Origin: an uncultured delta proteobacterium
GTDB taxonomy: Bacteria > Myxococcota_A > Polyangia > Polyangiales > Polyangiaceae
Assembly (NCBI GenBank): GCA_903894755.1
Contig: CAITRH010000137.1
Span: 1 to 34,615 of the forward strand
Direction: 5' to 3'
DNA: 34,615 nt
The notes under the pieces were generated by a model that saw only the letters and a program-made list of their open reading frames with translations, made no database searches and had not been told where the DNA came from. A program made the position numbers and the translations under genes. This document shows, piece by piece, positions 13,430 to 31,765 of the stretch; position 1 is the first letter of the stretch, and every line of letters begins with the position of its first letter.

Positions 13430-14184
13430 GGCAACTTCCCCTGATCCTGCGATGCGCGAATGTCAAACCTCGACGATGTCCAATGGCGATTGGGCGCGCG
13501 ATCTGCCGCCAGCTCCCCGTCTTCGAGCTCCACCACCCGATCGGCAAAGCGCTCGAGCCGATGATCGTGCGTCACAATGAGCACTGCGCTGGAAGACGTA
13601 ACATGATCGCGCAGGATCTCCATCACACTCAACGCCGTCTGCCCATCAAGAGCCCCAGTCACCTCATCGCCGACGATCACCCTGGGTTTGGACGCAAGCG
13701 CCCTCGCAATGGCCACACGCTGCTTCTGGCCCCCAGACAGTTCCCCGGGACGATGCTTCATGCGGTCTGCAAGCCCCACCCGACCCAATGCGTCTTCTGC
13801 TCGCTTGCGCGCTTCCCCGGCTGCCATCCCCTTGAGCCGCAAGACCTCCATCACATTGTCTCGCGCAGTCAGCGCGGGAAACAAATTGTAGGTCTGAAAG
13901 ATAAACCCGAGCTCGCGACGGCGAACCGCCGACACCTGCCCGTCCCCAAGCTCGCTGATCGGCTCGCCACAAAGCTCCACTTTCCCAGAGCTTGGCCGAA
14001 GGAGCCCAGTGAGAATAGAGATCAACGTTGTCTTGCCCGATCCAGAGGGCCCCATCAGGAGCGTAAGCTGACCAGCATGCACAGAGAGCGTGACCCCATG
14101 CAATACAGGTACCTGCAAAGCCCCGTCTTCAAAAGTCTTGCGCACATCCCATGCCCGCAGAAGCACCGAGAGCTCGCTCGTCAC
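13426..14184 (-). CDS. ABC exporter ATPase (DevA/MacB/LolD type)
   Basis: From the GTG at 14184, which overlaps the permease stop as GTGA, the protein is 252 aa. It has Walker A GPSGSGKTT, the Q-loop in FIFQTYNLFPALTA, signature LSGGQKQRVAIARAL, Walker B VIVGDEVTGALD and the switch His in VTHDHRL. It powers the permease encoded just upstream. The Walker B region reads D-E-V-T where D-E-P-T is usual; the catalytic Glu is kept, so activity is expected. The frame is open to 14421, but that part overlaps the permease and is not needed. The closest functional models are exporters of lipids and lipoproteins. Confidence 0.92.
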   Translation of the reverse strand: MTSELSVLLRAWDVRKTFEDGALQVPVLHGVTLSVHAGQLTLLMGPSGSGKTTLISILTGLLRPSSGKVELCGEPISELGDGQVSAVRRRELGFIFQTYNLFPALTARDNVMEVLRLKGMAAGEARKRAEDALGRVGLADRMKHRPGELSGGQKQRVAIARALASKPRVIVGDEVTGALDGQTALSVMEILRDHVTSSSAVLIVTHDHRLERFADRVVELEDGELAADRAPNRHWTSSRFDIRASQDQGKLP

Positions 14185-15305
14185 TTGAACACCTCGGCAG
14201 CCTGGAGCTTCAATACCTTGCGGATACTCATAAAGCTCGCAGCCACGCACATCAGAATCACGGCTCCTAGCCCCACTGCCATGACCGAGGACGACAGCAC
14301 GATAGTGAGTCCTCCAGCGGCCGCCGCCCCGGTTGTCATGAACGCAATGACAGACCCCAGGGTACTGCCGATCAGCGCGAGAAATCCCGCCTGCCACCCC
14401 ACGAATCGAACCAACTCCCACGAGGTCGCCCCAAGCGCCTTCAGTGTCGCCAGCTCCCGCTCGTAGTCTTTGGTCATGGTGTACAATGTCTGCCCCACTA
14501 CGACCACCCCCACAATGAGACCGAGCAAGGCACTGAAGCCAAGCGCCGGTCCCACACCGGAGCCACCGATCCAGTAGTTCTGCGTCATGGTCACGAAGTC
14601 TTCTCGACGTACCGCCATAAGCTGCGGATTCCGTTGAATGTCCCCCATGACCTGCTCCGCACAGGCAGGATCCTTAAGATCGACAACCCAGTAGTTCGCC
14701 TCGCCGTCCCCAAGCCCCGCCATTCTCCTGGCATCCCGTATGTTGGTGAACACGAATGGAAGCAGCGTGAAGGACCGTACGCCTTGCGTGATCCCCGCAA
14801 TCTCGGCCCGCTGCCCCCCAATGTCGAGACGCGCGCCGATGGGATCCCCCTGGATCTGCAGCTTGCCAAGATCGAACGCGTCCACTGCAACACGCCCAGG
14901 CCCCTCGAGATCGCTGGGAAGCCCCCGCTCTAGCTCCCAAGGCATGATAGGCCCCCGTCCCCGCTCAACCCCCACCACACGCACACTGTCTCGGGTCCCA
15001 CCAGCCTTGCGAATGAAGGACCACACAAAGACCAGCGGACGCACGTCGGACACACATGGATGCGCCCCCACCGCCGAACGTGTCCCAGATGACAAGATCT
15101 CCACGCTGTCGAGGACCTCTGTACCTCGTGGCATCACCCACACGTCGCCCCCCATGTGGGTGATGGTTGCTGACGAAATCGTCAGAAATCCCGCATACAC
15201 CCCCATTTGTAACAGCACCAGCACCGCGGCAAAGGTCACCCCTGCAATGGACGCCACAAGCTTGCTGCGATCGTGGATCAGTGACAATAGCGCTATGCGT
15301 CGCAT
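14181..15305 (-). CDS. ABC exporter permease (DevC/FtsX type)
   Basis: This 374-aa protein has one N-terminal membrane helix (about 16-38), a periplasmic domain of about 220 residues, then three helices in the C-terminal FtsX-like domain (from about 255). The coupling segment YERELATLKALGAT is typical of this family. The periplasmic part contains MGGDVWVMPRGTEVLDS, which resembles DevC-type permeases. It forms a DevCAB set with the following ATPase and membrane-fusion genes. Four nt overlap with the ATPase start. MacB-like permeases move substrates from the outer leaflet or periplasm to the outside, which fits a lipid product. Confidence 0.88.
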   Translation of the reverse strand: MRRIALLSLIHDRSKLVASIAGVTFAAVLVLLQMGVYAGFLTISSATITHMGGDVWVMPRGTEVLDSVEILSSGTRSAVGAHPCVSDVRPLVFVWSFIRKAGGTRDSVRVVGVERGRGPIMPWELERGLPSDLEGPGRVAVDAFDLGKLQIQGDPIGARLDIGGQRAEIAGITQGVRSFTLLPFVFTNIRDARRMAGLGDGEANYWVVDLKDPACAEQVMGDIQRNPQLMAVRREDFVTMTQNYWIGGSGVGPALGFSALLGLIVGVVVVGQTLYTMTKDYERELATLKALGATSWELVRFVGWQAGFLALIGSTLGSVIAFMTTGAAAAGGLTIVLSSSVMAVGLGAVILMCVAASFMSIRKVLKLQAAEVFK

Positions 15306-15314: not shown

Positions 15315-16226
15315 TCACCCCACGGACCAGGACAGGCGGTTCACTCCAAACGCCTGCACGCAAAGGCTCACGTAAAACCCTACGAGAAACAGTGTCGCCA
15401 ATGGCTTAAGCTTGCACCGCTCCGCTCGCTCCCGCAAAAACCGACGCAGCCCCAACACCGCTGCCACCAGCGCCGCAAGCACCAACGACGCCCCCCAGAG
15501 CGGCGCACCACGCTCCAAAAAAAGATGCACCACCAGCCCGCACGCCACCAACGCGCAGCCAAACGCAGCACCAATGGCCGCGTGAGGACCCAGCTCCCTC
15601 GAATACAGCCGCTCCGTAGCCTCGGTCAGGTGCGGCCACGCTATCTTCCGAGACAGCTCATAGTGCAGAAAAGCAAAGGCAAAGGCCACCACAAGAAGCC
15701 CTCCCGGCGTCCCCAAGGAAACACTATGGGTCTGCGACGCCAAGACACATGTGTAAACGCTCAGTGCCACATTCACCGGATAGGTCACAAGCAGGTTGAC
15801 CATCATCCCGTCGCGCACCCGAGTCGACACCCGCTCCAGCCACACGAGCAATACGCCCCACCCCATGTCGGCCAACACAATCCCCGCAAGCTTCCATGAC
15901 ACCCATGCGTTCACTGCCACGACCAGAACCGCAGTCACCGCCATGTACCCCCAGAGCTGACGCAAGGTCACGACCCCCTGCACCAGGGGACGGTCCGGAT
16001 TGTACACGCGGTCGTAGTCAAGGTCCTTCCACTCGTCGACCGCGCGCAAGAAAAACAACGTCATAAACAGCGTAAGGACCCCAAGCATCGTGTGCAGACC
16101 TAGTTTCCAACGCTCCGCTCCCGACAGGAACACAAAGGCCCCTTCCAGCCCAAGGAACCACGCGGCCGCATACGCCAGGTGAAGCCCCGGCGCGTAGACA
16201 TCCTTTACGAACCTTGTCAGGGCCAT
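15315..16226 (-). CDS. UbiA-superfamily membrane prenyltransferase-like protein
   Basis: This 303-aa protein has about eight to nine membrane helices. The first Asp-rich motif is present in variant form: AVDEWKDLDYDRVYNPDRP (Asp63, Asp67, Asp69, Asp71, then N-P-D-R-P), matching the N-D-x-x-D-x-x-x-D...NPxRP pattern of UbiA enzymes. These attach prenyl or similar chains to aromatic or sugar acceptors. The second Asp-rich motif is not obvious: SRKIAWPHLTEATERLYSRELG occupies its place with Glu but no Asp pair. The ATG at 16226 is 3 nt after the preceding stop and has GGAGG 7 nt upstream. It may join an isoprenoid to the synthase product, but the weak second motif leaves catalysis open. Confidence 0.8.
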   Translation of the reverse strand: MALTRFVKDVYAPGLHLAYAAAWFLGLEGAFVFLSGAERWKLGLHTMLGVLTLFMTLFFLRAVDEWKDLDYDRVYNPDRPLVQGVVTLRQLWGYMAVTAVLVVAVNAWVSWKLAGIVLADMGWGVLLVWLERVSTRVRDGMMVNLLVTYPVNVALSVYTCVLASQTHSVSLGTPGGLLVVAFAFAFLHYELSRKIAWPHLTEATERLYSRELGPHAAIGAAFGCALVACGLVVHLFLERGAPLWGASLVLAALVAAVLGLRRFLRERAERCKLKPLATLFLVGFYVSLCVQAFGVNRLSWSVG

Positions 16227-16229: not shown

Positions 16230-18932
16230 TCAGCCTCCGTCAGGCAGCACGGTCACCACCCCTGACGCCCCGTCCATCTCGATCCAAGCCCCGTCCGGAA
16301 TGCGCGTCGTGGCTCCAGCAAGAGACACAATGGTGGGAATGCCGAACTTGCGCCCCGTAATGGCCGTGTGCGACAGCATACTTCCTCGCTCCACCACGAT
16401 CCCCTTGGACGCCAACATAAGAAAGAGCCATCCCGGATCGGTCTCCCGAGCGATCAGGATCGTGTCTTTGCCAAGCTCCTCTGCGCAGTTGGGATCCAGA
16501 ACAACCCGGGCCCGTCCCCGCACCTTGCCTGTACTGGAACCAAGACCTCGCAGCTCACCGGACGACACCTCAGTTCGAGGACGTGATGCCAGCTGGTTGG
16601 CGCGCACTGGCCCCAGCGTTGTCAGCTCCATAGGGGTCTCGACCGCCTGGTTCTGCTCGAACTCGGAGCGACGCAAGTCAGCAAGCGCCTGCAGATTCTC
16701 GGTCACGCCAGTACCATCCACATAGCCGAACACCTCATCTTGGGTCAAATGGTAGATGTCGTCGGCCCGACGCAGCACGCCGCTGGAGGCAAAGTGGTCT
16801 CCGAGGGCGCGAAAGATGTTCTTGCTAAAGCCAAAGAGCTCGCTTCGGCAGTAGCGGCTGTTCTCGCGCCATCGTACGAGCTGTCGCAGCGCTCGCAGCA
16901 GATAGCCCATCACCAGTTTGCGCTCAGGATGCCCTGACAGGGCACTTGCAAGACGCTTCTCGCCCTCGAGCCGGACTGCGCGCTCCTTGTCTTTCATGTC
17001 GTCGACAGAGATGCTCTTGGAAACGTAGGATTGCACCATCTTCATGAGCACTGCGGGATTGTGTCGCAGGTTAGGCTGTTCCATCTTGAGCTCTTGGAGC
17101 CCCCGATCGCCGTAACGATGGCAATGCTCGCGCGCGGCCTGGACAAACGCGGCCTCGAGCTCCGCACGCTCGACGGCCTCCCAGAGTTGCTCTGGAGTCT
17201 TTGTCTCAAAGGCCCTCCGCAGGGACTCGTCCTTGCGCACTCGCTCGGCCAAACGCACCGCAGAATGGATGATCTCCACGCTCAACAGCTCCTCGTCGCC
17301 GCACAATAGGTCGCTCAGAAGGGACGTGTCCACCGACAGCCCCCATCGCGTGAACAGCTGCTCGGTGAACCCGTAGATCACAGGCAAGTAGGTGTCGTTC
17401 AACAGGGTGACGCCCCACTGATTGCCGACCTCTGTCCAGACACGATGGAACTCCCCAAGAAGAACCATTGGATCGAGTCCAGGAAAGGACTTGCCACGCA
17501 GAGGACCAAAGAGTCCCTCCCACCAGCGGAAGAAGCTTGCCATCGCGCGGTCATGGGTCGCGTAGCGGAACAGGATCACCAGCGCCGCAGCTCCCGTCTC
17601 GCTCCCCTTGGTGACGTACTGGAGGGTGCGTTCGAGCAGGTTGCGCGGCTGCGTCTCGTAGGAGGTCCGAAACCCCATCATCTTCTCCCAGTGCCCTCGA
17701 AACACTGGAAAGAGCGGGCTCTGACTGTGCAGATGGTAAAATGACGTCAGACAGTAGTAGACCCGTCCGCCAAGAAACCCGATCATGTGGTCGAGCGACT
17801 CATGGTTGTCATGCAAGCCCTGCATGCTGAGACCCAGCTTGCGGTAGCAGTCGAAGAAGATGACTCGATAGAAGTAGCGCGAGAACGAATAGGTCAGCGC
17901 TGTAGTGACCCCCGGGAAACTCTCGGTCACGTTGGCGTTGGTCCAGACCCGCATGCGCCGGTAATCGAAGGCAATGGGCCTCGCCTGCAGAAACGTGATG
18001 GCTCCACTGTCGGTGATAGTCCCCTCGATGTCCTGAGGACAGGCAAAGATCTTCTCGATCGTTTGGCCGTAATCAACTAGGCTCCGTAGCTCCTGGTCCG
18101 TAAGACACGGGAGACCACGCAATGCCTCCTCTACGGGGGCCGCTATCAGACCGTAGCCGCGCTCTTTGTCAAAGGTGAGCTTGTCGGTCTTATCGACAAT
18201 TTCCCTGCGAATGTCACGGGTGGTGTTGTTGATAAAGTAGTGGTCACAGGCGACTTTGTCCTGCACGACCCCCTCCCCAATGCCCCATCCTGCCACAATC
18301 ACCGTGTCGCGCGAGGCCGTCTTGGGGTCGCAGGTGAAGAGGACAAACGACCGCTCACCAAAGACCATCTCTTGGATCGCTACGCTGACAGAGAAGCCAA
18401 GCAGATCCATCCCCTGGGCATGCCTGTAGATCAGCGACTCCTCAGAGAAGCCCGAGCCCCAGCAGAGACGCACCTTCTCGGTCACTTGGTCCCTCAGAAC
18501 GTAGAGGAAAGTCTCGCTCATGCCGGCAAAAGGGTTGCTCGCTGAGTCCTCGCTCTCCTCCAGTCGGTGTCCCACAGTGGACGCACGCACGGCAACCCTC
18601 GTCGAAGCTGCAAAATGGGCGTCGAAGGCGTCCAGAATGGCCTTTTCCTGGTCGGAAGTCAGCGACATCTCTCGGAAGAGCGCGCGAACATCCGTCGCAG
18701 CTGAGCGCACCGAAGTGACATGGTGAAAGTCGATGGCTTCCAGACGACGTTGCACACGCTCTCGCAATGGGGCAAAGGCCTCATCGAAAAAGGCGGCGGT
18801 AAGCCCGAACAGCCTCGCCACTGGAAGATGATGCTGCGCCAAGACTCGCTGCCTCGAAAGCTTGCCACCTACCGCCTTCTCGTCGAGCAACTGGTCATCC
18901 ACCGCTATGCGCTTGTTGTCTAACTTCTGCAT
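16230..18932 (-). CDS. PEP-synthase-like phosphotransferase (rifampicin phosphotransferase/PigC architecture)
   Basis: This 900-aa protein has an ATP-grasp PEP/pyruvate-binding domain (about 90-330), with VRASTVGHRLEESEDS, FAGMSETFLYVL, QEMVFGERSFVLFTCDP and DIEGTI...LQARPI. A central domain of about 450 residues follows. The C-terminal mobile domain (about 800-900) has catalytic His855 in GSMLSHTAITGRKFGIP. True PEP synthase carries a PEP/pyruvate TIM barrel after the His domain; that is absent, so the protein belongs with rifampicin phosphotransferase and the prodigiosin-condensing enzyme PigC. These phosphorylate or condense small molecules via a phosphohistidine. The ATG at 18932 overlaps the previous stop by 1 nt (TGATG). 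The substrate is presumably an intermediate of this operon. Confidence 0.85.
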   Translation of the reverse strand: MQKLDNKRIAVDDQLLDEKAVGGKLSRQRVLAQHHLPVARLFGLTAAFFDEAFAPLRERVQRRLEAIDFHHVTSVRSAATDVRALFREMSLTSDQEKAILDAFDAHFAASTRVAVRASTVGHRLEESEDSASNPFAGMSETFLYVLRDQVTEKVRLCWGSGFSEESLIYRHAQGMDLLGFSVSVAIQEMVFGERSFVLFTCDPKTASRDTVIVAGWGIGEGVVQDKVACDHYFINNTTRDIRREIVDKTDKLTFDKERGYGLIAAPVEEALRGLPCLTDQELRSLVDYGQTIEKIFACPQDIEGTITDSGAITFLQARPIAFDYRRMRVWTNANVTESFPGVTTALTYSFSRYFYRVIFFDCYRKLGLSMQGLHDNHESLDHMIGFLGGRVYYCLTSFYHLHSQSPLFPVFRGHWEKMMGFRTSYETQPRNLLERTLQYVTKGSETGAAALVILFRYATHDRAMASFFRWWEGLFGPLRGKSFPGLDPMVLLGEFHRVWTEVGNQWGVTLLNDTYLPVIYGFTEQLFTRWGLSVDTSLLSDLLCGDEELLSVEIIHSAVRLAERVRKDESLRRAFETKTPEQLWEAVERAELEAAFVQAAREHCHRYGDRGLQELKMEQPNLRHNPAVLMKMVQSYVSKSISVDDMKDKERAVRLEGEKRLASALSGHPERKLVMGYLLRALRQLVRWRENSRYCRSELFGFSKNIFRALGDHFASSGVLRRADDIYHLTQDEVFGYVDGTGVTENLQALADLRRSEFEQNQAVETPMELTTLGPVRANQLASRPRTEVSSGELRGLGSSTGKVRGRARVVLDPNCAEELGKDTILIARETDPGWLFLMLASKGIVVERGSMLSHTAITGRKFGIPTIVSLAGATTRIPDGAWIEMDGASGVVTVLPDGG

Positions 18933-19933
18933 CACTGGGCCTCTCGGTAAAGCAAGTCCGCGGCACGCCGCAGGACAACCATTGGATCGCGTTGCACTAT
19001 CCCGTAGGGCTCCCCCAATTCCTGGGCAAGCCTATCGGTGCAGACATGATGGGGAAGCCCTAGCAGTTCCAGCTTGGTCGCTAGCGATTGAAGGGATCGC
19101 GAGGGGCCACGGCGCAGAAACCTGCAAAAACCAGCGCCTACAGGAACCCTTAGCCGCGGAGCCGACAGACTGAAACGCTCGGCAAGAACAGAAACCATGT
19201 CGTCGAAGGTCACTGGCTGCGCATACCCAACATGCAGCGCACTTCGACAAGGGCGCTCTTCGGCCGCTCGTACGGCTACGCGCTCGGCAAGGCGTAACAG
19301 CATCGCAGCATAGTCGTCCACATCGACAATGGTATAGGCTTGCTTGCCCGTGCCAATGCCGATCCCGCGGCGAAGCAGCTTGTAGATGCCAGGCAATGTC
19401 GAGCGGTCACCTTGTCCAAGGACAAAGCGTGGGCGAAGTAAGAAGACGCTCCAACCTCGTCGCTCTGCTTCCTCCAAGATCAGCCGCTCCGCCTCAACCC
19501 GCGACTGGGCCAAAGCGGTCTCGGGACACAGGGGCGCATCTTCATCGTGTCCCTCCTGTGGCCCCTGTCCGTACACGGAAAGAGAGCTACCATAGAGCAC
19601 TCCCATGCAGCCGGGCGTTAGGGACTGCAGCAAGCTGCGCGTCCCCTCGACGTTGACCTTGGCGAACCCTGTACCGTCGCTGTCGACCTGACGGGTGGCA
19701 AAGTGGATGACAACGTAGGGTTCAGCAGGAAAGAGCTCCCGAGGAACCTCTCCTAGCTGGCCGAGCACGGAAACAATATGGGGACTCGCCAGCCGCGCCA
19801 GGTCCCCTCGCACCAGTGCCCGAGCCTCGATGCGCTGGCCCGCGTTGCCAATGCGTCGGCAAATCGCTGATCCCACGAATCCGGTGGCACCCAGCAACAC
19901 AAGGCGAAGTGGAGAGCTGCGATGGTCTTGCAC
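18932..19933 (-). CDS. extended SDR (NAD-dependent epimerase/dehydratase-like), catalytic Tyr and Lys replaced
   Basis: This 333-aa Rossmann protein has the nucleotide loop GATGFVGSAI (about 15-24) and the usual VIHFAT, VNVEGT and GSSLSVYG segments. C-terminal features of epimerase-like SDRs follow (RPRFVLGQGD, DVDDYAAMLL, LHVGYAQPVTFDDM). Where family members have Y-x-x-x-K, the sequence reads L141-A-Q-S-R145 followed by VEAERL, so both catalytic residues are replaced. It may bind NAD(P) without acting as an oxidoreductase, or use other residues. The start is a GTG 3 nt after the preceding stop. Most likely it acts on, or holds, an intermediate of the pathway. Confidence 0.8.
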   Translation of the reverse strand: MQDHRSSPLRLVLLGATGFVGSAICRRIGNAGQRIEARALVRGDLARLASPHIVSVLGQLGEVPRELFPAEPYVVIHFATRQVDSDGTGFAKVNVEGTRSLLQSLTPGCMGVLYGSSLSVYGQGPQEGHDEDAPLCPETALAQSRVEAERLILEEAERRGWSVFLLRPRFVLGQGDRSTLPGIYKLLRRGIGIGTGKQAYTIVDVDDYAAMLLRLAERVAVRAAEERPCRSALHVGYAQPVTFDDMVSVLAERFSLSAPRLRVPVGAGFCRFLRRGPSRSLQSLATKLELLGLPHHVCTDRLAQELGEPYGIVQRDPMVVLRRAADLLYREAQ

Positions 19934-19936: not shown

Positions 19937-20581
19937 TCACCAGACCAGCGGAAGAATGCGAGGTCTTCCTCGGCTGTACTCCGCATACCCGTCAAGCTCC
20001 ATGAGGACCTGCTCCTCGATGCGGATGCGCAGCACAACTGCGGGAACAAAGAGAACCAGGAGAATTCCAAGACTCACCCAGTTGAAGAAGAAAAGGACCA
20101 CCCCAAGGTGCGCAAAAAGCATCCCTGTGTAGGCGGGGTGGCGCACGAACCGATAGGGCCCCGTGTCGATGATCTTGTGTCCCCCCACCACCCGGACTCG
20201 GTGCGAGTAGAACCTTCCAAGCTCCCGTATGGCTACCAGTCGAAAGGTCACCGCTGCCAGGAACAGTCCAAATCCCACATAGCCACGCACCGAGACCTCG
20301 GTGCCAGCAGGAATTCCAAGCGCCGTAAGCACCGTCGCCGCCCGTGCAAAAGCATAGAGCTCCAAGGTGCCGCGGTCCAGCGACGTCTTCCCTTTGTCAA
20401 GCTCCTTCACGGCTACCTTGGCCTCGACTACCAGCCAGAGCAGATACGACGCGACCAGCGCGATCGCAATCCAAAGTGACACACCGGTCCAGAACCGAAG
20501 CTTGTTCACCGACAGCCCGACGATGGCCGTCACAAAGGTCACCGACAGTAGAATGGGCAGGCGCTCTTGAAAACCTTTCAC
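19937..20581 (-). CDS. ICMT-like membrane methyltransferase, second copy
   Basis: The protein is 214 aa from the GTG at 20581, which has AAAGGAG 6 nt upstream; the longer open frame overlaps the previous gene and is rejected. It has about five membrane helices and the isoprenylcysteine-carboxyl-methyltransferase/phospholipid-methyltransferase motif GPYRFVRHPAYTGMLFAHLG. The closing segment is RIRIEEQVLMELDGYAEY with the conserved Glu pair. Such enzymes methylate carboxyl, hydroxyl or amino groups of lipid-like substrates with S-adenosylmethionine; BpsB of Bacillus O-methylates alkylpyrones made by a polyketide synthase. It is 11 nt from a paralogue of the same length. Confidence 0.85.
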   Translation of the reverse strand: MKGFQERLPILLSVTFVTAIVGLSVNKLRFWTGVSLWIAIALVASYLLWLVVEAKVAVKELDKGKTSLDRGTLELYAFARAATVLTALGIPAGTEVSVRGYVGFGLFLAAVTFRLVAIRELGRFYSHRVRVVGGHKIIDTGPYRFVRHPAYTGMLFAHLGVVLFFFNWVSLGILLVLFVPAVVLRIRIEEQVLMELDGYAEYSRGRPRILPLVW

Positions 20582-20592
20582 CGTACGCTCCT

Positions 20593-21237
20593 TTAGTAGA
20601 TCCCAGGAAACAGCGACCATGGAACACGTTCCGCGTAACGCACATACTCGGGTACGGACCGCAGGTAGCGATCCTCCCATACGGTTCGCACCATCACCGC
20701 CGGACACCACAACAGCACCAACGCGCCAACGGACCACGGATTGGGCAGCAAGAACACCACCCCTGTGTGGGCAAGCAAGGTCCCAAGGTACGCTGGATGC
20801 CGCACGACCCGGTACGGCCCGCTGACGATGAGAGGAAGCTCCGGGAGACGAATGCGGTGGCTGTAGGCCGTGCCAAGCTCCCGGACCGAAGAGCCCCGGA
20901 TGACAATGCCTAGCACCATCAGCACCAATCCCACCACCGCCAGCCAAACGACGGGAACAGTCGCTGGAAGGAGCGCGCCCGTTAGCAGCGAAAGCTTCGC
21001 AAATGCTGCAAACTCCATGGTCCCTCGGTCGCGGTCCACCGAGTCCTTGGCGACCTCCCGCACTGACACTCGCGACTCCCAGAGCAGCCACGCGCCGTAC
21101 AACCCGAACCCCGTTGCCACCAGCGCGCCCGACATGGTGACGCCGAGACCATAGAGCCTGCGGATTCCCAGTGCCCCCATGAAAACAAAGCCCGCCACGG
21201 TCAATAGCAGCGGCGCTAAGGCGTGCAGCTTCTTCAT
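20593..21237 (-). CDS. ICMT-like membrane methyltransferase, first copy
   Basis: The protein is 214 aa from the ATG at 21237, which overlaps the stop of the AMP-ligase-like gene as ATGA with a GAGGGGG just upstream. It is a membrane protein with the same plan as the next gene. It has YSHRIRLPELPLIVSGPYRV, then RHPAYLGTLLAHTG, then a C-terminal end with WEDRYL where the paralogue has IEEQVL. The two copies share layout (DRGTMEFAAFAK against DRGTLELYAFAR) and look like an old tandem duplication. The Glu-Asp in place of Glu-Glu may indicate a changed substrate. It probably methylates a lipid intermediate or product at the inner membrane. Confidence 0.82.
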   Translation of the reverse strand: MKKLHALAPLLLTVAGFVFMGALGIRRLYGLGVTMSGALVATGFGLYGAWLLWESRVSVREVAKDSVDRDRGTMEFAAFAKLSLLTGALLPATVPVVWLAVVGLVLMVLGIVIRGSSVRELGTAYSHRIRLPELPLIVSGPYRVVRHPAYLGTLLAHTGVVFLLPNPWSVGALVLLWCPAVMVRTVWEDRYLRSVPEYVRYAERVPWSLFPGIY

Positions 21238-23012
21238 TGCCCCCTCGGTTGCACCAGGATCTGTCGCCGGTACAACATGACCTTGCGCGGAACCTTGTGC
21301 GGCGAAAGGTGCGCCTTGCAAAACTCAATGACCCCATTGGTGTCCAGTGTCGCGTCAGCCTTCGTGATCACCGACACAGACAGCCTCTCGCCCGTCAGTT
21401 GCCCGCTGGTCACCGTTACCTTCGCGTCGGACACCTCCGGGTGACTGCGCAGAAGCTGCTCGATCTCCACCAGGTCCACCATCTGCGCCATCACCTTGGT
21501 GAAAGGCCCCGAGCGACCGTGAAAGTGCAGGAACCCGTCGGAATCAATGTGCCCAAGATCGCCCGTGTGAAACCAACCGTCTCGCATAAACTGCGCCGTT
21601 TCCTTGGGACGTTTGATGAAGCCAGACATCAGCGTGGGTCCAGAGACCGTGATCTCGCCGAACCTTCCATTAGGTACCTCGTTGCCGTCCGCGTCAACAA
21701 TGCGAATGTGGATCCGGTCGCTGAGAGGGACCCCGAGGCTTCCAGGAAGGTTGCGATCCGCGTGGTTTGCAACCACTGGCAGCGTCTCTGTCAACCCATA
21801 GCCTTGGTAAGGCTCGATACCGAGAGCTGCGATCACCGCGTGTGTCAGCTCCTCGGAGAGATGCGTTCCGCCCGACGACAGCACTAGGTCCGGATGAAGC
21901 TTCTTCTTCATCTCCGGGTTGGCTTCGGCCCCCATGACGAGGGGAGCAAACAACATTGGCACCATACAGACCACCCGCACCTGATGTCTCACAAGCAGGT
22001 CGAGCAGGTCGGCCTTTGCGATCTTGTGAATGATCAGCAGCCGGGCTCCGATGGCCAGAGGCGCCATCACCGCCGCAAGCAGGCTGTACACAGGATAAAT
22101 GGGGAGACCCAAAAGATGCACGACATTGCCCGTGGTCGCGTAACGTCCTATGAGCGCCTGGATGCAGTGCGTATAGTTCGCATAAGTGTGCAGCGCTCCC
22201 AAGGGATAACCGAGCCCCTTGTAGGTAAAATGACAGCTTACGACCGTCTCCCCATCCGGAGCAGCCAGTTGAGAAGGCCAACTCGTGATCGCGTCTAGGT
22301 AGGTCAACTTTATGCCGTGCGTGTCCACATTGGGCGGCAGAGGAGCCGTAACCAGAGCAAAACGCAGCGGACCTATATTTCGCAGGATCCGAAGTGCACG
22401 GGACTCATGAAACACCACCGCAATAGGGGTTGCGTCGCGCAGGATCGGCTCAATCTCGTAGGCTGTCATCCGAGGGTTCACTGGAACCGCAATGGCCGAC
22501 AGGGACGCTAACGCGTAGACGCTTGCAATCAGCTCTGGGCCCGATGGGAGCAAGAGCAGAACGCGGTCGCCATCCTGTACGCCAAGCTGGTCAAAGACGC
22601 TGCGGAAACGCTCCATCAGCTCCTTCAGCTCTCGATACGTCAGAACCCTCTCCCCGGCTTCTATGTCAATGGCCACCGCATCGGGGGCCGCCGCCACCTG
22701 AGTGAGAAATCCCTCGATGAACCCCCCCGAGTAGCCCGAAATAGGCAGCGCCGCGCGGAAATAACTTGACGCCGCGATCTCGGCTACTTGCACATGCCCC
22801 GATGGAGTCGCCTCGGTCACCCGCATCCGATGGTTTGGCGTCGACTCCACAATCCGCACACGTCCCGATGGCGTTACCTCGGTGACCTTGAGACGCCCGG
22901 ACGGCGTTAGGTCAGTCAGTTTGATCCTTCCCGACGGCGTCGCATCGTCGGTCTTGGTTCGAGCCGATCGTACGGGTTGCGCGGACTTAATGTGTGTTGA
23001 CTTTTGAGCCAT
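21234..23012 (-). CDS. AMP-ligase (ANL superfamily)-like protein with degenerate motifs and an N-terminal repeat
   Basis: The 592-aa protein begins with five 11-residue repeats (about 25-79). An acyl-CoA-ligase fold follows, with YQGYGLTETLP (A5), GWFHTGDLGHIDSDGFLHFHGRS (A7) given here in part, and VDLVEIEQLLRSHPEV (A8). The ATP phosphate-binding loop, normally TSGTTGxPKG, reads FTYKGLGYPLGA and lacks its Ser/Thr-Gly core and Lys. The C-terminus stops at RRQILVQPRGQ, before the usual GK with the catalytic A10 lysine. Adenylation is therefore doubtful; it may bind or transfer an acyl group without ATP. It follows the synthase genes and overlaps the next gene by ATGA, so it belongs to the same pathway. 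Confidence 0.85.
   Translation of the reverse strand: MAQKSTHIKSAQPVRSARTKTDDATPSGRIKLTDLTPSGRLKVTEVTPSGRVRIVESTPNHRMRVTEATPSGHVQVAEIAASSYFRAALPISGYSGGFIEGFLTQVAAAPDAVAIDIEAGERVLTYRELKELMERFRSVFDQLGVQDGDRVLLLLPSGPELIASVYALASLSAIAVPVNPRMTAYEIEPILRDATPIAVVFHESRALRILRNIGPLRFALVTAPLPPNVDTHGIKLTYLDAITSWPSQLAAPDGETVVSCHFTYKGLGYPLGALHTYANYTHCIQALIGRYATTGNVVHLLGLPIYPVYSLLAAVMAPLAIGARLLIIHKIAKADLLDLLVRHQVRVVCMVPMLFAPLVMGAEANPEMKKKLHPDLVLSSGGTHLSEELTHAVIAALGIEPYQGYGLTETLPVVANHADRNLPGSLGVPLSDRIHIRIVDADGNEVPNGRFGEITVSGPTLMSGFIKRPKETAQFMRDGWFHTGDLGHIDSDGFLHFHGRSGPFTKVMAQMVDLVEIEQLLRSHPEVSDAKVTVTSGQLTGERLSVSVITKADATLDTNGVIEFCKAHLSPHKVPRKVMLYRRQILVQPRGQ
22776..22940 (-). repeat. five tandem 33-bp units encoding an 11-residue repeat
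   Basis: The units are TPSGRIKLTDL, TPSGRLKVTEV, TPSGRVRIVES, TPNHRMRVTEA and TPSGHVQVAEI. The Thr-Pro start is invariant and hydrophobic positions 6 and 8 and the acidic tenth position are mostly kept, while DNA has diverged, which points to selection on the protein. Alternating polar and hydrophobic residues suggest short beta strands joined by Pro-Ser-Gly turns, perhaps a docking or oligomerisation element. I do not recognise it. Confidence 0.8.
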
Positions 23013-23021: not shown

Positions 23022-23144
23022 CTAGGCCGTGATGAGGTCCAGATACGGAGCGTACAGTAAGGCGACAGCGCTTCGCAGGAAATCGTCACGTCCCGCCAGC
23101 ACCAGTGTCGAAAGATCGCTGCCGCGCCGCGTCAGTCGCCTCAT
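23022..23144 (-). CDS. 40-aa small ORF coupled to the KS gene
   Basis: ATG at 23144 overlaps the KS-gene stop as ATGA and the TAG ends 9 nt before the AMP-ligase-like start, so it fills the only gap between the two. The product has a basic start (MRRLTRRGSD) and a hydrophobic C-terminal half (FLRSAVALLYAPYLDLITA). Seventy percent of third codon positions are G or C, in line with coding DNA here. No family is recognised. It may be a small subunit or a spacer that keeps translation running between the large genes. Confidence 0.45.
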   Translation of the reverse strand: MRRLTRRGSDLSTLVLAGRDDFLRSAVALLYAPYLDLITA

Positions 23145-26100
23145 GGCCCCGCCGATCGCCGCTGCTGCTCGTACGTCTTGGCGTCTACCACCTGCGACTT
23201 GATCCGAATCGCGCCGAGCTCCCCTTGCGGCGACATCAGCACCATGCGCACACGCGCAATCCACATGGTCTCAATCCGTGTCAAAGGCTCCATTGCAAAA
23301 CGAAGCCGAAGCCGCGTGCCTCTCCACACAGGCCCTGCCAATGTCATCGCCACCGCAATCAGGTTCATTGGCATGCCCAGCGGAATCTTCCCAACGTCAT
23401 GTGCCCCTGTCATCACCATCTGTCGCGCTACCTCCAGCAAAAATACCGGGGAATAGTACGCCGTACTGCCATCCTCAAAGAAATGCCCGGGCGGCGGAGC
23501 CAGAACGTCACACATGTACCCTTCCGGCATCTCCTCAAGAGGCCCAATAAGCACATTCTCCTGCCGCTGCTTGTGCATCAACGTCGCATCCCCAGCCGCC
23601 ACACGCTTTCCCCCCCCGCTGGCTCCACCTCTGCGCAACGGCGTCTGCCCCACCTCCAAAGAAAAGGTCGCTACCTGCTCCCCCCGTTGTACCAGACTTC
23701 CCGTGAACGCCTCTTGCCCCTTGCGCAATAGGTTCACACGAACCCCCCCTTCCGTCTCGCAAAACCTGCGAAAACGAAGGTCGAGCCTGCGAATGTCACG
23801 CTCTTCCTCCTGCCCTGTTGCCCCCATCCCAACCGCATGCTCGGCCAACTGGACAATCCCCTCGAGAAGCAATATGCCCGGCACATGGTCCAGTGGATGA
23901 TCAAAAAAGTACGGATGCCCCTGATCCACCACGAGATCGCAGGACACCCCCGCCTCCGTCCGCTCCACCCCCGCAATCACCACGTTCTCGGCACGTCGCC
24001 TTGCAACCGCAGACTCATCGTCTCTCCCAAGAAGCTCCACAGCCGCTCGCTGCGCCGCAAAAAAACTCTGCATCGCCCGCTCCGCAGCTCGAAGCCACGC
24101 TAACCGTGCCCCTTCCCCCATAAACTGCGCCGCCCTCCTAGGTGACGGCGAAACCACTGCGGACGGTCCCAGCACTCGAGGCGCCGGTGGCTTCGCCCCG
24201 CGATGCAGCGATACCTCCAGTGGAATTCTCTTCGTCTTGGCCTCGAACCGCGCCTTGCCCCCCTTGTCGAAAAACAACGTTGCACGCAGCTCTCCCCGCT
24301 CGCACAACGACACAGTCGCTCGTCGCTCCCGCCCAAGAAGCACCCGTGACAATACCTCAACCCCGGTCGCCTCTGCTAAAAACCCAGTCCTGCGGCTCGT
24401 CACCGACGTTGCAGATACATGCTCCCCGTCAAGCTCGCTCGTCTCCCGAAGCTCCACAGACGATGCCTCTACACCCGCTACTTTGCACGCGCCTTCCCAC
24501 GACGACGCATGCTTCGCTGGCACCACCCGCAACGTCGCTAGCACCGACACGCCCTCCTTGCGCGCCGCCTCCGCGGATTGCAATAAAAACAGTGCCGCGC
24601 CTTCACCTGATGGCGTCCCCTCCCGATCGAGCCGCAACACCTCTTTCCATTCCACCGGACTCTTGATCAGCCTCGCCCCTCCAAGCAGTAGCCGCTCGCA
24701 ACGTGTCTGTAGCCAGTAGGGCGCTGTCAAGAGACCAAGCCAGAACGTTCCCGCCCCTCCGTTCCAGGTCTCGTGAAATGCTCGCAAGTTGAAATGGTAC
24801 GCTAAATAGCCTGACGCCATCGTCGGAAGACTCGATGCCAATGCCTCCAACGTCGTCTCCGGCCCCATGCCCTCCTTGGAGCCCGCTCCCAGCAAGACTG
24901 CCGCCTTTCGAGCTAGACGTAGACTGATTTCCCCGCCAAAGTTGCTGGCTACTATAACCCCCGTGGTCGCTGAGTCGCTTGCCTTCGGATTGCGCGCCAA
25001 AAGCTCGTGGGCTAGATGCGTCGTTAGAAGCTGCAAAGGGTCGATGCGCCGCAGAAAGTTTGGCCCCATCCGAAGCCCCTGCGCCTCCACCTCGAACTTG
25101 TCAGGAAAAAGCCGAATCCGCGCAGGCTCCTCCGGCCCCTCCAGCCGCTTGGACCATCCCTCGCTGCTCGTTTCCCCACCCAACGCAGCTTCAAAATCCA
25201 AGATCGCCAGTTCGAACGCGGCCTCGGTCCGAATCTCTGCGCCCACCGCTACTGCAACAGCGCGCTCTGGCTCGGACTCCAGCACCACATGGACATTGGC
25301 ACCGCCAAACCCAAAGGAGGAAATTCCTATCCGCCGTCCCCTTGTGCCCACCTCCGGCCAAGGCTTTGCCTCGGAAAGCAAGGTCAGACAGGTCTCCCTA
25401 AGGCGACCATGCGGGGTCACCGGAATGTGCGGCGGAAGAACCCCATGACGCAACATCAAGAGCCCCTTGATCAGCGACGCTATGCCCGCTGCCGCTAGCG
25501 TGTGTCCAATCAGACTCTTCACCGAGCCAATGGGAAGCTTCGTGGAGCGATGAGGCCCAAAGAACTCGTGCAAACAGGAGAGCTCCGTCTCGTCGCCAAG
25601 CACTGTCGCCGTGCCATGTGCCTCTACATAGTCCACATCGCCAGCAGACAGCCCAGCGTAGGCCCGCTCGTACGCAAGCCTCTGTCCGTCCGCCCCGGGT
25701 GCAAACACCGAGCGCTCTGCACCGTCCGCCGCTATCCCAAGCGAGCGCACAATGGCCCGAGGACTCCGTCCCGCACTTCGCGCTCGCTCCAGAGGCTCTA
25801 CTATCAGCGCCCCCGCACACTCGCCCGGTATGATCCCTGACGCGTCGCTCGCAAAAGGTGCAATACGACCCTGCATCGACAGCGCCATCAGCTTGGAGAA
25901 CCCAAGGTACAAGAAAGGCGGCAAGAACACGTTGAGTCCCACCACCACCACCGCGTCCGCCTGCCCCCGTGCAAGCAGCGCCGCCGCAACGTCCAGGGCG
26001 TACAGCGACGACGCACATGCTGTGTCCACTGCAACCTTTGGCCCTCGCAGCGTGGGAGCCAGTGCCTCGAGCTGCGCTTCGCACGAATAGGCGGGCCCGG

Positions 26101-26512
26101 AAGGCTGCGGGAGTCCAAGCACCGCTGCCGTGTCATGGGCAAAGTAGCTTGGCGCACTCCATGAAGTCCCAGCCACCAGCGCCACATGGTCTAGGTCGAG
26201 CGGCCTGCCCACCTGCGCTACATCGGCAAGCGCCGCTTGGACCACATGCCGCCCCGCTCGTACCTGCACGTCGCTCTCGCCTGCATCGCCGATCCCGTCC
26301 ATGGTCAGTGAAAAGCCCTGATCCATGTAGATCCGATCCGCTACGCCCGGTGTCCCCAAATAACGATCGCGCGCAATCCCCCAGCGCTTCTCCTGCGACG
26401 ACAGCGGCGCCACTTGAGCCGCAAGCACTTGGTCCCAAAAGCGATCTGCGTTGTCTGCACCCGGAAACACTCCGGCCCATCCAGTTACCGCAAGGGGCTC
26501 AAATGGACGCAT
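23141..26512 (-). CDS. synthase subunit KS-(degenerate KS)-AfsA-AfsA
   Basis: This 1123-aa protein starts with a complete ketosynthase (1-425): Cys166 in VDTACASSLYA, His in EAHGTATVLGDE and His in KSLIGHTLAAAG. A second KS-like domain (about 430-760) has ETWNGGAGTF at the nucleophile position and no His motifs, so it is inactive, like the chain-length factor of PfaC. Two hot-dog domains follow: GHPYFFDHPLDHVPGILLLE (about 825-955) and HKQRQENVLI...SPVFLLEVARQM (about 985-1115). Their motifs fit the AfsA/ScbA family, which acylates dihydroxyacetone phosphate in butyrolactone synthesis, better than FabA-like dehydratases. The ATG at 26512 has GAAGGA upstream and overlaps the previous gene by 14 nt. 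Confidence 0.9.
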   Translation of the reverse strand: MRPFEPLAVTGWAGVFPGADNADRFWDQVLAAQVAPLSSQEKRWGIARDRYLGTPGVADRIYMDQGFSLTMDGIGDAGESDVQVRAGRHVVQAALADVAQVGRPLDLDHVALVAGTSWSAPSYFAHDTAAVLGLPQPSGPAYSCEAQLEALAPTLRGPKVAVDTACASSLYALDVAAALLARGQADAVVVVGLNVFLPPFLYLGFSKLMALSMQGRIAPFASDASGIIPGECAGALIVEPLERARSAGRSPRAIVRSLGIAADGAERSVFAPGADGQRLAYERAYAGLSAGDVDYVEAHGTATVLGDETELSCLHEFFGPHRSTKLPIGSVKSLIGHTLAAAGIASLIKGLLMLRHGVLPPHIPVTPHGRLRETCLTLLSEAKPWPEVGTRGRRIGISSFGFGGANVHVVLESEPERAVAVAVGAEIRTEAAFELAILDFEAALGGETSSEGWSKRLEGPEEPARIRLFPDKFEVEAQGLRMGPNFLRRIDPLQLLTTHLAHELLARNPKASDSATTGVIVASNFGGEISLRLARKAAVLLGAGSKEGMGPETTLEALASSLPTMASGYLAYHFNLRAFHETWNGGAGTFWLGLLTAPYWLQTRCERLLLGGARLIKSPVEWKEVLRLDREGTPSGEGAALFLLQSAEAARKEGVSVLATLRVVPAKHASSWEGACKVAGVEASSVELRETSELDGEHVSATSVTSRRTGFLAEATGVEVLSRVLLGRERRATVSLCERGELRATLFFDKGGKARFEAKTKRIPLEVSLHRGAKPPAPRVLGPSAVVSPSPRRAAQFMGEGARLAWLRAAERAMQSFFAAQRAAVELLGRDDESAVARRRAENVVIAGVERTEAGVSCDLVVDQGHPYFFDHPLDHVPGILLLEGIVQLAEHAVGMGATGQEEERDIRRLDLRFRRFCETEGGVRVNLLRKGQEAFTGSLVQRGEQVATFSLEVGQTPLRRGGASGGGKRVAAGDATLMHKQRQENVLIGPLEEMPEGYMCDVLAPPPGHFFEDGSTAYYSPVFLLEVARQMVMTGAHDVGKIPLGMPMNLIAVAMTLAGPVWRGTRLRLRFAMEPLTRIETMWIARVRMVLMSPQGELGAIRIKSQVVDAKTYEQQRRSAGP

Positions 26513-29500
26513 GGCTTTCCTTCAGGCCCATCGCGGCCGCCGCGGCTTGCGGATTCAACGCCAGTTCGAGCATGGCACGCGGCGTCAGCAGTACCCAGTC
26601 TTCGCTCTTGTCGCCAAACTGTAGCTCCTGAAGAAACCCTGACACGCCCACATGGTTGGAAATGCCCTCGATGCCCAGCCTAGTCATCTGCCGCTTGAGG
26701 GCCCGACTCGCAAGCCCCGACTCGGACCACACCCCCCAAAGAAGCGCCCGCACTGGATAGGACACCCCCCGATTCCACTCCTCTGCCACCGCACCCACGA
26801 TTTCGTTGGCTGCTACGTAGTCGGTCTGTCCTGCAGTCCCCGTGTGCGCCGCAAGCGAGCTGAAAAGGAAAGCAAACTGCATTGGGTCTCTCTCGAGCAG
26901 CGCCCGAAGGTGCCTGGTCGAATGCGCCTTTGCATGCAACACCCGACGGAACGACTCCAGCGACTTCGCTCCTATCCGCGCGTCTTCGATGCAACCCGCG
27001 CCATGCACCACGCCATGGATCGGCCCGTGCGCCGCTCGGATCGCTTCCAGTGCACGTGCCAGCTCGCCCTCCTTCGTTGCATCGGCCTGCTCATAAAAAC
27101 ATGGACTCCCAGCCCGCACCAAACGCTCTCGGGTCCGCCAGACCGCCCGCTGTCGAGACACGCCACGCAAACGCTCCCGAAGCATCTCTGCTTCACTGCT
27201 GCCGTCACTCCATCCGTCCCGTCGAAGCTGCTCGACCAAAAGCCGCATCACCGAAGCGTCGTCCGAGGCTTCGGGTAGTGGTAAACTTGTAGGCATCGCT
27301 GTACGTCCCACAATCGCCAGTCGACACTGGTACTTGCGCGCAAGTCCGTAGCCAATCTCCGCAGTGATCCCATCCCCCCCGCCGACCAAGAGCACCAGCG
27401 AGCTCGCGTCGAGATGCACTGCCGAGGGGGCCCTTGCCCCGCAAGACCGCACTTGGAGCTCGCGCCGCAATAGACGCTCTCCCACTTGGACAACATCGAG
27501 CTCGCTCGGCCCCGAGAACAACGCGTCAACCACACGGTGCGTATCAAAGTTCCCCTGCTCACGAAGCCACATGCAACGAACGTTCGCCTTTGGCCACTCC
27601 CGCGCTAGGGCGCGCGCCACTCCGCGAGCTCCTGTCCATGCAGTCGACGCTCGGTCGGTCCCCAACACCGCAAGCCATCCCACTCCTGGCGCCGCCTCAA
27701 GCGCCTTTGCAATCACGAAAAGCCCCGTGGCTCCCCACTCCACTGCGCGCTCCCAAGATGTCCCGTCGCCGCTTGCGTAAAGAACCCCCACCGGCGTTGA
27801 CGACAGCAGCGGCTGCAGCGCTTGCCCCAGCGCGGACCAGTCCTCAAAGCCTATGGGCTCCTGGCCCCCTGGAAGGACCCACCCCTGTTCCTCGAGACGG
27901 AGATGTAGCACACTTACGTCCTGTGCCAAGAGCGCCTTTTCCAGAGCGTCGGCCTGCAGTCCTGGCTGGGAGACCAAGAGGACTTGTGAAGGCCAGACCT
28001 GCGGCTTCGCTTCGACCACCGGCACCTCGACACGGACAAAGCGGTCAAGGTTTTGCAGTTCGAGAGGAGCATGACCAAGCTGCTTGCAAAGGCGCACAAG
28101 CTCGTCGACCGTCTGCGCACGTCCAAGCTCGTTGCCAGCCAATGCAAGCTCAGGGTGCATCCGCACAATGGCCTCCACGATTTCGTTTCGGGTGAAGGCG
28201 TCGAGGTTCAGGTCGTCGTCAAAGTGCGTGGTGCCATGGAGGCTCGCCCGGTCGATCCCCTTGGCTGCCACAATGCGCTCGATGATCTCCGCCTTCAGGT
28301 CGGCAACTGGAACCGCCGCCACGACACTGTCCACAGGAGGCGGCAACTTGGGTTCTTGCAGCTTGACAGGCACAGGCTTTGGTGGCGTTGGGGAATCAGC
28401 AGGTTTGCTTGATGCACCCGAGGCGATATCGGCGAGCAGCTCCAGCACCTGGCCCACTGCGCGGCACTTCTGAAAGTCCTTCCGGCGCGCCTCGATGGGT
28501 GGAAACTCCTTGACAAGAGCAGCGTAGATCTCCACGAGGGTCAGGGAGTCGAGGCCGAGGTCCCGCTCGAACTCGCTTTCGCGGCGGATCATATCGTCTG
28601 GAAAACCCGTGAGCGTCACGATCTGCTTTCGCAGCCAGGGTTCGCTTCCTGGAGTTAAAGCCTCTTGTTGCTGGCGCACGGGCTCGGCGGGCTCGGCAGG
28701 CTCGGCAGGCTCGGCAGGCTTCGCAGGTTGCACGGCTGGAAACGCGTTGGCCATGGCTGCAAGCATGGGGGGACGAGCGGTTGCAGCAACGGGCAAGCCA
28801 AGGAGTCCTAGGGCTCGTTCCTGGGTGGCGAAGAACTGCCCGAGGGTGCGCTCGTTGGCCTCCAATGCTGCATGAAAGAGCTGCTGTCGCTCCGATGCAG
28901 AGGCTTCTGTCACGAGCCCGGCGAGCTTCTGCTGCTGGGAGAAGAAGGCCTCCATCACGCGGGCATTGGTTGCAAAGAAAGTTTCGAGCGGCGCGTGTTC
29001 GGGGGAAGTGGAGACGGACGGCGACGGGATGGCAGACGGGGGACGGTTCATGGAGGCTCCGAAGGGACTGGCGTTGAGGGGCACGCCGAGGCTGGCAAGT
29101 CGGGCAAACAGGTGAGCCCAGTGGACTCGAGGATCTTTTTTGAGCGGGTCGAGGGGGAGCACAGTGTAGGAACGGGTTTCCAAGATCCGCGCTGTCAGGT
29201 CACTGAGGACCCGTCCAGGCCCCACCTCGAGGAAGATACGGGCGCCGGAGGCAAACAGCTGCTCGACGCTGTCGACCCAGCGCACGGGAGCCGTGATCTG
29301 CCGCTCGAGACCTTCCCGAAGCGCGTCGACGGTCTCAGCGTACGGTCTTGCCGTGACGTTGCCGACAATGCGGGAGGCGCCAATTGGATGAAAGACTGCT
29401 TGGTCGAGGACAGTCCGCCATCGCGTTGCCACGGGCGCCATGAGGGGGGAGTGGAAGGCGCAGGAGGTTCGCAGTCGTACGGTGCGAAGTCCGAGTCGAG

Positions 29501-30320
29501 CAGCGTTCGCTTCGACTGCTTCGAGGCTTGCAAGAGCACCGGACAGGACCACCTGGTCAGGGGCGTTGTGGTTGGCGACCACCACTGTACCGTGGACTGC
29601 ATCGAGCAAGCGACCGACGACGTCGGCGGGGGCGAACACAGCGGTCATGGCCCCTGGGGCCTGGTCACCAGCCTCGCCGAGAAGCCGACCGCGGGCCTCA
29701 CTGAGGCGAAGGAACGTGTGGTCGTCGAGGACCCTGGCGATCGCGAGGCTTGACAGCTCGCCGTAACTATGGCCCGCCAGGGAATTGGGGGTGATCCCGA
29801 GGGCTTCGAGCGCTCTTGCGGCGGCCAGGGAAACGAGGCCGATGGCAGGTTGGGCGCGACGAGTGTCGCGAAGCTCCCTGTCGTTGGCGTCGGTTTTTTG
29901 GCGATGGACAACCGCGAGGAGCGACTCTTGGAACAGCGATTTCCATGTGTCATCGAGGGCGCCGAGGTGCGCATGGAAGTTGGGCAGAACGCCGGAAAGC
30001 CCAGCGAGCATGCCGGTGTATTGACTCCCTTGACCTGGCAGCAAGAATGTGAGTGAGGCAAGGCCTGGTGGAGACGGGTCGAAGTAGATGCCGTGGTCGG
30101 CGAGGGCGATGGGAGCTCCATGGGCGAGCTCGCGGAGGGCGATTGCGGCTTGTGCCGATAGGGAGCCGTGGTGGGGTTCGACAAGGGCAAGGGTGAGGGG
30201 GCCATCGCCGTAGGTGCCGCCGATTGCGTCTTGTTGGAAGCGGAGGGGGTCGAGGTGCTCTGCGATGGCAGCTGGGGACGCACCGCGCAGCAACCAGCAG
30301 GAAGGGGCTTTGGCATTCAT
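26499..30320 (-). CDS. synthase subunit AT-ACP-ACP-KR
   Basis: The 1273-aa protein has an acyltransferase (about 85-390), with LLPGQGSQ, Ser185 in GHSYGE, CAFHSPL and FLEVGPGRVL. A helical, Pro-Ala-Glu-rich linker precedes ACP1 (about 565-640, attachment Ser592 in DLGLDSLT). ACP2 (about 680-760) reads DLNLDAFT with Ala708 where the phosphopantetheine Ser should be. A ketoreductase (about 770-1240) follows, with VGGGDGITAEIG, FLFSSLAAHTG and GQTDYVAAN, all catalytic residues present. It lacks a KS, which the next gene supplies. Together they resemble PfaA plus PfaC of polyunsaturated fatty acid synthases with domains redistributed. The first codon is ATG without a clear ribosome site. No dehydratase or enoyl reductase is present. 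Confidence 0.92.
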   Translation of the reverse strand: MNAKAPSCWLLRGASPAAIAEHLDPLRFQQDAIGGTYGDGPLTLALVEPHHGSLSAQAAIALRELAHGAPIALADHGIYFDPSPPGLASLTFLLPGQGSQYTGMLAGLSGVLPNFHAHLGALDDTWKSLFQESLLAVVHRQKTDANDRELRDTRRAQPAIGLVSLAAARALEALGITPNSLAGHSYGELSSLAIARVLDDHTFLRLSEARGRLLGEAGDQAPGAMTAVFAPADVVGRLLDAVHGTVVVANHNAPDQVVLSGALASLEAVEANAARLGLRTVRLRTSCAFHSPLMAPVATRWRTVLDQAVFHPIGASRIVGNVTARPYAETVDALREGLERQITAPVRWVDSVEQLFASGARIFLEVGPGRVLSDLTARILETRSYTVLPLDPLKKDPRVHWAHLFARLASLGVPLNASPFGASMNRPPSAIPSPSVSTSPEHAPLETFFATNARVMEAFFSQQQKLAGLVTEASASERQQLFHAALEANERTLGQFFATQERALGLLGLPVAATARPPMLAAMANAFPAVQPAKPAEPAEPAEPAEPVRQQQEALTPGSEPWLRKQIVTLTGFPDDMIRRESEFERDLGLDSLTLVEIYAALVKEFPPIEARRKDFQKCRAVGQVLELLADIASGASSKPADSPTPPKPVPVKLQEPKLPPPVDSVVAAVPVADLKAEIIERIVAAKGIDRASLHGTTHFDDDLNLDAFTRNEIVEAIVRMHPELALAGNELGRAQTVDELVRLCKQLGHAPLELQNLDRFVRVEVPVVEAKPQVWPSQVLLVSQPGLQADALEKALLAQDVSVLHLRLEEQGWVLPGGQEPIGFEDWSALGQALQPLLSSTPVGVLYASGDGTSWERAVEWGATGLFVIAKALEAAPGVGWLAVLGTDRASTAWTGARGVARALAREWPKANVRCMWLREQGNFDTHRVVDALFSGPSELDVVQVGERLLRRELQVRSCGARAPSAVHLDASSLVLLVGGGDGITAEIGYGLARKYQCRLAIVGRTAMPTSLPLPEASDDASVMRLLVEQLRRDGWSDGSSEAEMLRERLRGVSRQRAVWRTRERLVRAGSPCFYEQADATKEGELARALEAIRAAHGPIHGVVHGAGCIEDARIGAKSLESFRRVLHAKAHSTRHLRALLERDPMQFAFLFSSLAAHTGTAGQTDYVAANEIVGAVAEEWNRGVSYPVRALLWGVWSESGLASRALKRQMTRLGIEGISNHVGVSGFLQELQFGDKSEDWVLLTPRAMLELALNPQAAAAAMGLKESHASI
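28681..28725 (-). repeat. five 9-bp units encoding Pro-Ala-Glu repeats
   Basis: Near-identical GGCTCGGCA units on the + strand are read on the minus strand as Pro-Ala-Glu repeats in the linker before ACP1. Three units are identical and the outer two differ by one or two bases, so unit number may vary by slippage without breaking the frame. The likely role is a flexible arm for the carrier domain. Confidence 0.85.
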
Positions 30321-31741: not shown

Positions 31742-31745
31742 CTTT

Positions 31746-31765
31746 GCGTCGCTCGCGACGCTTTT
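31746..31765 (+). terminator. intrinsic terminator of the lipoprotein gene
   Basis: GCGTCG-CTCG-CGACGC (31746-31761) forms a 6-bp GC-rich stem with a 4-nt loop, followed by TTTT, only 4 nt after the stop codon at 31741. Confidence 0.75.

Follow-up and report, generated by a model that had tools for sequence, protein, structure and literature searches.

A predicted AfsA-type double hot-dog with swapped halves at the C-terminus of an iterative ketosynthase subunit from an uncultured member of the Polyangiaceae

The window analysed here, a stretch of 34,615 nucleotides from an uncultured delta proteobacterium (contig CAITRH010000137.1), carries a tight same-strand operon that runs from 30320 to 12215 on the minus strand. 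At its head lies a PKS subunit (26499..30320) with the order AT-ACP-ACP-KR and no ketosynthase (KS), identified by Pfam, NCBIfam and residue alignment. The AT has Ser185 and the first ACP Ser592; the second ACP has Ala708 where the phosphopantetheine serine is expected (LNLDAF), and therefore only one loaded ACP is expected in this subunit. The KS-bearing protein (ORF 23141-26512) follows, and then an AMP-dependent acyl ligase (21234..23012; Pfam, NCBIfam), which is syntenic in relatives and probably loads the starter. Two methyltransferase genes come next. The first encodes an ICMT/PEMT-type membrane enzyme (20593..21237; PF04140, 50 bits), its start inferred as the ATG that overlaps the ligase stop; the second, ICMT-type (19937..20584; Pfam, start also inferred), is the C-terminal part of a 466-aa ORF (19937-21337). 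We rejected this longer ORF as a fusion, since its N-terminal part overlaps the ICMT ORF 20593-21321. Two ICMT genes likewise occur in the loci L037, L062, L063 and L066.

Further along the operon are an SDR or epimerase-family reductase, OleD- and 3beta-HSD-like (18932..19933), and a PEP-synthase-like, PigC-like dikinase (16230..18935), both identified by Pfam and NCBIfam. The dikinase has the swivelling-His motif GSMLSHTA at 851 and is matched at 57-60% identity in L027 and L037. A UbiA-family transferase homologue (15315..16226; NCBIfam, and Pfam at 27.5 bits, under the cut-off) retains the first Asp motif, DEWKDLDYD; a second DxxxD motif was not found in its sequence. Profile matches identify a MacB/DevC-type ABC permease (14181..15305) and a HlyD-type periplasmic adaptor (12215..13429), with an ABC ATPase between them (13426..14421) whose annotated start is probably too early. 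No PfaD-type ER was seen in the operon, and no HAD phosphatase in the window cluster. Upstream of the operon, a 607-aa ORF (30827-32650, minus strand) has no Pfam match at E 0.01.

ORF 23141-26512 (minus strand) encodes 1123 aa from an ATG and is free of internal stops. Residues 1-420 (25253..26512) form a ketosynthase domain (Pfam ketoacyl-synt, 135 bits; Ketoacyl-synt_C, 111 bits) in which alignment with seven homologues places an intact Cys166/His299/His337 triad. Residues ~430-715 (24368..25225; Pfam, alignment to homologues) are a second, apparently inactive KS. Its active-site Cys is absent in the window protein and in the seven homologues, and in being Cys-less this domain resembles a chain-length factor (CLF). 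The remainder holds two hot-dogs, at residues 835-955 (23648..24010; Pfam, half-profiles, residue alignment) and 976-1123 (23144..23587; Pfam, half-profiles, AF2 model), marked by the motifs HPYFFDHPLDHVPGILLLE at residues 866-884 and NVLI...LLEVARQ at residues 986-1031. The order KS, inactive KS, hot-dog, hot-dog, first read from the letters alone, is thus confirmed by Pfam and residue alignment, and it means that this PKS polypeptide ends in an AfsA domain. The same KS-CLF-AfsA fusion was seen again in more than 30 loci of other genomes and is therefore not a chance event.

The hot-dogs had been proposed to be of the AfsA rather than the FabA type, and the profile searches bear this out. AfsA (PF03756) matches in two stretches with 70.1 bits against a cut-off of 24, which each stretch passes singly in a genome search, and ScbA/BarX (NF041195) matches in two stretches with 94 bits, short of its equivalog cut-off of 200. 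FabA and DH models gave no Pfam match to the ORF at E≤0.01, and neither Pfam nor NCBIfam matched the pair to a thioesterase family. Profile comparison related hot-dog 1 to FabZ with an E of 2e-4 and to active PfaC hot-dogs with 3e-5; AfsA/ScbA profiles score far higher than these, and the likeness to PfaC or FabZ appears to go to superfamily level only. A higher score for FabA or PfaC dehydratases, with their His/Asp pair in place, was not found. The genome's own two FabA-family hot-dogs lie in ORFs of ~150 aa, neither in a PfaC-like protein. At the two key motifs most of the ScbA invariants are, by alignment, retained: D871, H872, D875, H876 and G879 in hot-dog 1 (DHxxDHxPG) and H980, E1027, R1030, Q1031 and H1038 in hot-dog 2 (H...E..RQ......H), and each of these ten residues, D871 to H1038, is conserved at 92-100% among the proteins of the swapped family described below. 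A His and a Glu also lie near the FabZ catalytic positions in the profile alignment; this Glu884, in hot-dog 1, is retained in only about half of that family. An AF2 model of the pair is a confident double hot-dog (pLDDT 91.6, pTM 0.91). Structure searches with it returned generic double hot-dogs, with no AfsA entry among the matches listed, and PDB sequence searches with the query gave no useful match. The fold alone suits dehydratases, cyclases and thioesterases equally.

The two hot-dogs are rejected as separate enzymes by BLAST and by half-profiles, which make them halves of one double hot-dog. In BLAST alignments with ScbA proteins from plasmids, it is their C-terminal half that the first hot-dog matches. 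With half-profiles, hot-dog 1 matches the ScbA C-terminal half at E 1.6e-30 and the N-terminal half at 0.07, and hot-dog 2 matches the N-terminal half at 1.8e-14 over 141 columns and the C-terminal half at 1.4e-6 over 58 columns. Judged by these matches, the hot-dogs are jointly one AfsA-like double hot-dog in which the order of the halves is the reverse of that in ScbA/BarX. A canonical query, by comparison, matches at least 80% of its own length in one place, collinearly, in 141 plasmid records. The swapped order was found in 75 of 83 proteins, the canonical order in two (Yokenella and Serratia microhaemolytica), and six were ambiguous; because similarity to the window decided the ranking of the 80 loci, these figures do not measure how common the swapped order is in nature. 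In a tree with the halves re-ordered, swapped and canonical proteins split on a branch with 100/100 support. The swapped order and this single, fully supported split from canonical ScbA give a clean marker for such clusters. A free AfsA-related gene of swapped order, its second half weak, occurs on plasmids of Aliiroseovarius crassostreae (L015:13917-14819), where it adjoins UbiD/UbiX-type genes and an MMPL transporter.

Relatives were collected by scanning genome contigs; a protein search of 377 genomes of the phylum gave no full-length relative. The window KS and those of 15 other KS-CLF-AfsA proteins form a clade with 100/100 support, drawn from Pseudomonas, Serratia, Neisseria, Desulfobacteraceae, Syntrophomonadaceae, Bdellovibrionota and Myxococcota. 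The PfaC KSs (from Azospirillum and a Myxococcota genome) form another clade (100/97), apart from the window KS. The window protein shares with PfaC of the PUFA synthases the domain order [KS-CLF-DH2] and the split from a subunit with AT, ACP and KR (PMC3098273), but its hot-dogs are AfsA-type rather than FabA, and its partner, without a KS and with one ACP lacking the Ser, differs from the PfaA partner [KS-MAT-ACP4-6-KR]. The sequence-only reading had raised the possibility that AfsA and the PfaC dehydratases are linked in evolution, which therefore finds no support: since the KS lies outside the PfaC clade and the hot-dogs' likeness is at superfamily level, the KS-CLF-hotdog order is best read as convergent assembly. 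The KSs of the modular PKSs L060, L064 and L091 also fall away from the window clade, so that PKSs of at least two KS lineages have acquired an AfsA pair. L060:3335-10843 and L091:3080-10894 are single ORFs of ~2500-2600 aa with the order AMP ligase-ACP-KS-AT-DH-ACP-TE-AfsA, and thus carry on one polypeptide both an AfsA pair and a TE, the latter an alpha/beta-hydrolase. In the other Myxococcota loci L022, L023 and L024 an AfsA hot-dog region of ~160 residues lies in ORFs of 225-574 aa with one AfsA stretch and no fusion; these are possibly single-hot-dog relatives.

The neighbourhood of the hot-dog gene is also conserved. ICMT and PEP-synthase-like genes accompany it in 39 of the 80 loci (ranked, as above, by similarity to the window), most of which also have a UbiA homologue and some an SDR, and these loci range from Actinobacteria to Bdellovibrionota. 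The conserved module thus comprises the hot-dog, a PEP-synthase-like enzyme and one or two methyltransferases of the ICMT type, as a rule with a UbiA homologue and often with an SDR. The acyl source varies among the loci, being an iterative KS-CLF, KAS III enzymes (which the actinobacterial members adjoin) or a modular PKS that itself includes a DH and a TE. A second group of clusters, in Pseudomonas, Serratia, Neisseria and others, combines KS-CLF-AfsA with an acyl ligase, HAD phosphatase, FAD monooxygenase, ACP pair and SRPBCC cyclase; no KR was found in its Pseudomonas loci. One of these, L029:1281-12225, stands with ~25 similar loci for a conserved and apparently undescribed cluster of the P. 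fluorescens group, comprising an SDR, acyl ligase, HAD phosphatase, FAD monooxygenase, ACP pair, KS-CLF-AfsA, SRPBCC cyclase and outer-membrane barrel. Canonical ScbA genes, too, have HAD phosphatase neighbours.

Among characterised proteins, AfsA/ScbA/BarX (PF03756, NF041195) have in common with the window protein the homologous hot-dog halves and most signature residues; the window protein differs in its swapped halves, its fusion to KS-CLF and its score under the ScbA equivalog cut-off, and its neighbours are ICMT, PEP-synthase-like and UbiA genes, whereas that of ScbA/BarX is ScbR. A functional parallel may be the phosphorylated-butenolide-synthase domain of the gladiostatin/gladiofungin PKS, which is likewise AfsA-type, likewise sits at a PKS C-terminus and takes the place of a thioesterase (PMC7756379, PMC7756420). 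The gladiostatin domain condenses 3-ketothioesters with dihydroxyacetone phosphate (DHAP) in vitro (PMC7756379), and production of gladiofungin was abolished when most of the AfsA domain was deleted (PMC7756420). The release of a 3-keto thioester proposed there is what, by analogy, may be suggested for the window protein, although the former belongs to a trans-AT modular assembly line and the latter is an iterative KS-CLF subunit.

From the computed domain identities, their order and conservation, the kinship to AfsA, the swapped halves, the invariants and the recurrence of fusion and module, we infer a reaction and its acceptor, the point at which the KR acts, what the tailoring enzymes do and in which order, a product and its export. 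An iterative type I PKS, split into AT-ACP-ACP-KR and KS-CLF subunits, would build a beta-ketoacyl chain on an ACP, and the C-terminal double hot-dog would pass this acyl chain to a hydroxyl group on a small C3 acceptor, for which DHAP is the likeliest candidate. The resulting beta-ketoacyl ester could cyclise into a head group of the (phospho)butenolide type, to be tailored by the methyltransferases, the SDR, the PEP-synthase-like enzyme and the UbiA homologue, and the MacB/DevC-HlyD transporter may then export the product. We consider it probable, with real room for doubt, that the AfsA-type pair releases a beta-keto chain onto a hydroxylated C3 acceptor, be it DHAP or a compound like it. 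Release or transfer of such a chain had been suggested earlier; it holds as the best reading of the profiles, the invariants, the relatives and the gladiostatin precedent, with both the reaction and the hydroxylated acceptor putative. This reading is favoured because relatives have a PKS DH or showed no KR, because of the phosphatase neighbour and because of the gladiostatin/gladiofungin precedent: in L060 and L091 the AfsA pair is probably not a dehydratase, since one is already there together with a TE, and the HAD phosphatase of the L029 cluster fits a DHAP-derived phosphate. Against it, the window KR makes a beta-hydroxy intermediate available, a HAD phosphatase is absent from the window cluster, the ScbA equivalog cut-off is missed, Glu884 is missing from about half of the family, and the fold would equally suit other hot-dog enzymes. 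We know of no enzyme of the swapped group with an assay.

Alternatively, the pair could serve as dehydratase in an iterative synthase of the Pfa-like kind whose product is an unsaturated or hydroxy lipid, its likeness to AfsA reflecting shared hot-dog ancestry only. The partner subunit has a KR, the KS-CLF-hotdog-hotdog order is that of pfaC (PMC3098273), a His and a Glu are retained near the FabZ positions, and the best structural matches include PKS DHs. Even so, we regard a dehydratase as unlikely, given 70 bits for AfsA against no FabA match at E 0.01, the far stronger scores of the ScbA-half profiles, a KS outside the PfaC clade, and relatives that have a separate PKS DH or whose cluster yielded no KR; in the Pseudomonas L029 cluster, where no KR was found, a dehydratase would be without its usual substrate.

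If the chain is instead left unreduced, the pair might act as an aldol cyclase or aromatase, like a product-template domain, to give a phenolic lipid prenylated by UbiA and methylated by ICMT. The product-template domain of PksA is a fold match (Z 17, a score it shares with many others), a FAD monooxygenase and an SRPBCC polyketide cyclase are encoded in the Pseudomonas cluster, and the operon holds a UbiA homologue. The AfsA-specific residues are kept, however, the second Asp motif of UbiA was not found, and the actinobacterial members go with KAS III enzymes, a setting that makes a polyketide chain less probable, all of which makes cyclisation quite improbable. Least credible is a hydrolytic thioesterase that frees the beta-keto acid, which we judge very improbable: although double hot-dog thioesterases of the TesB/FatA type are among the top structural matches, no thioesterase family matched by sequence in Pfam or NCBIfam, and L060 and L091 have an additional alpha/beta-hydrolase TE.

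An AfsA domain as the release domain of a PKS is already known from gladiostatin/gladiofungin. In the literature searched, which included few subscription papers, we found neither an iterative KS-CLF-AfsA fusion nor the swapped order nor the conserved module described. For the salinipostin (spt) cluster of Salinispora, AfsA homologues have been reported in 12 phyla, according to the paper that cites this survey (PMC12114271), and as far as that account goes the survey may overlap the actinobacterial part of the module. The spt system, taken here by its description only, offers a possible parallel to the AfsA genes beside KAS III in actinobacterial loci. Foxicin was also checked and is unrelated.

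One may speculate, though we hold the idea to be rather doubtful, that the module of swapped AfsA pair, ICMT, SDR, PEP-synthase-like dikinase and UbiA is an undescribed, phylum-crossing pathway. According to this speculation, beta-ketoacyl chains from three sources (iterative KS-CLF, KAS III or modular PKS) would be led to one head group, in which the DHAP phosphate is possibly kept as a methylated or alkylated enol phosphate, as in cyclophostin and the salinipostins. The recurrence of the fusion and its neighbours across several phyla points to a route, not described so far, by which lipid-like natural products are completed. If the release onto a C3 acceptor is true, AfsA chemistry would be the off-loading step of iterative Pfa-like synthases in several phyla, beyond its place in signalling or modular-PKS release. 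The family would then include many Pseudomonas species open to cultivation and mutation, and its conserved neighbours make the head-group chemistry testable one gene at a time.
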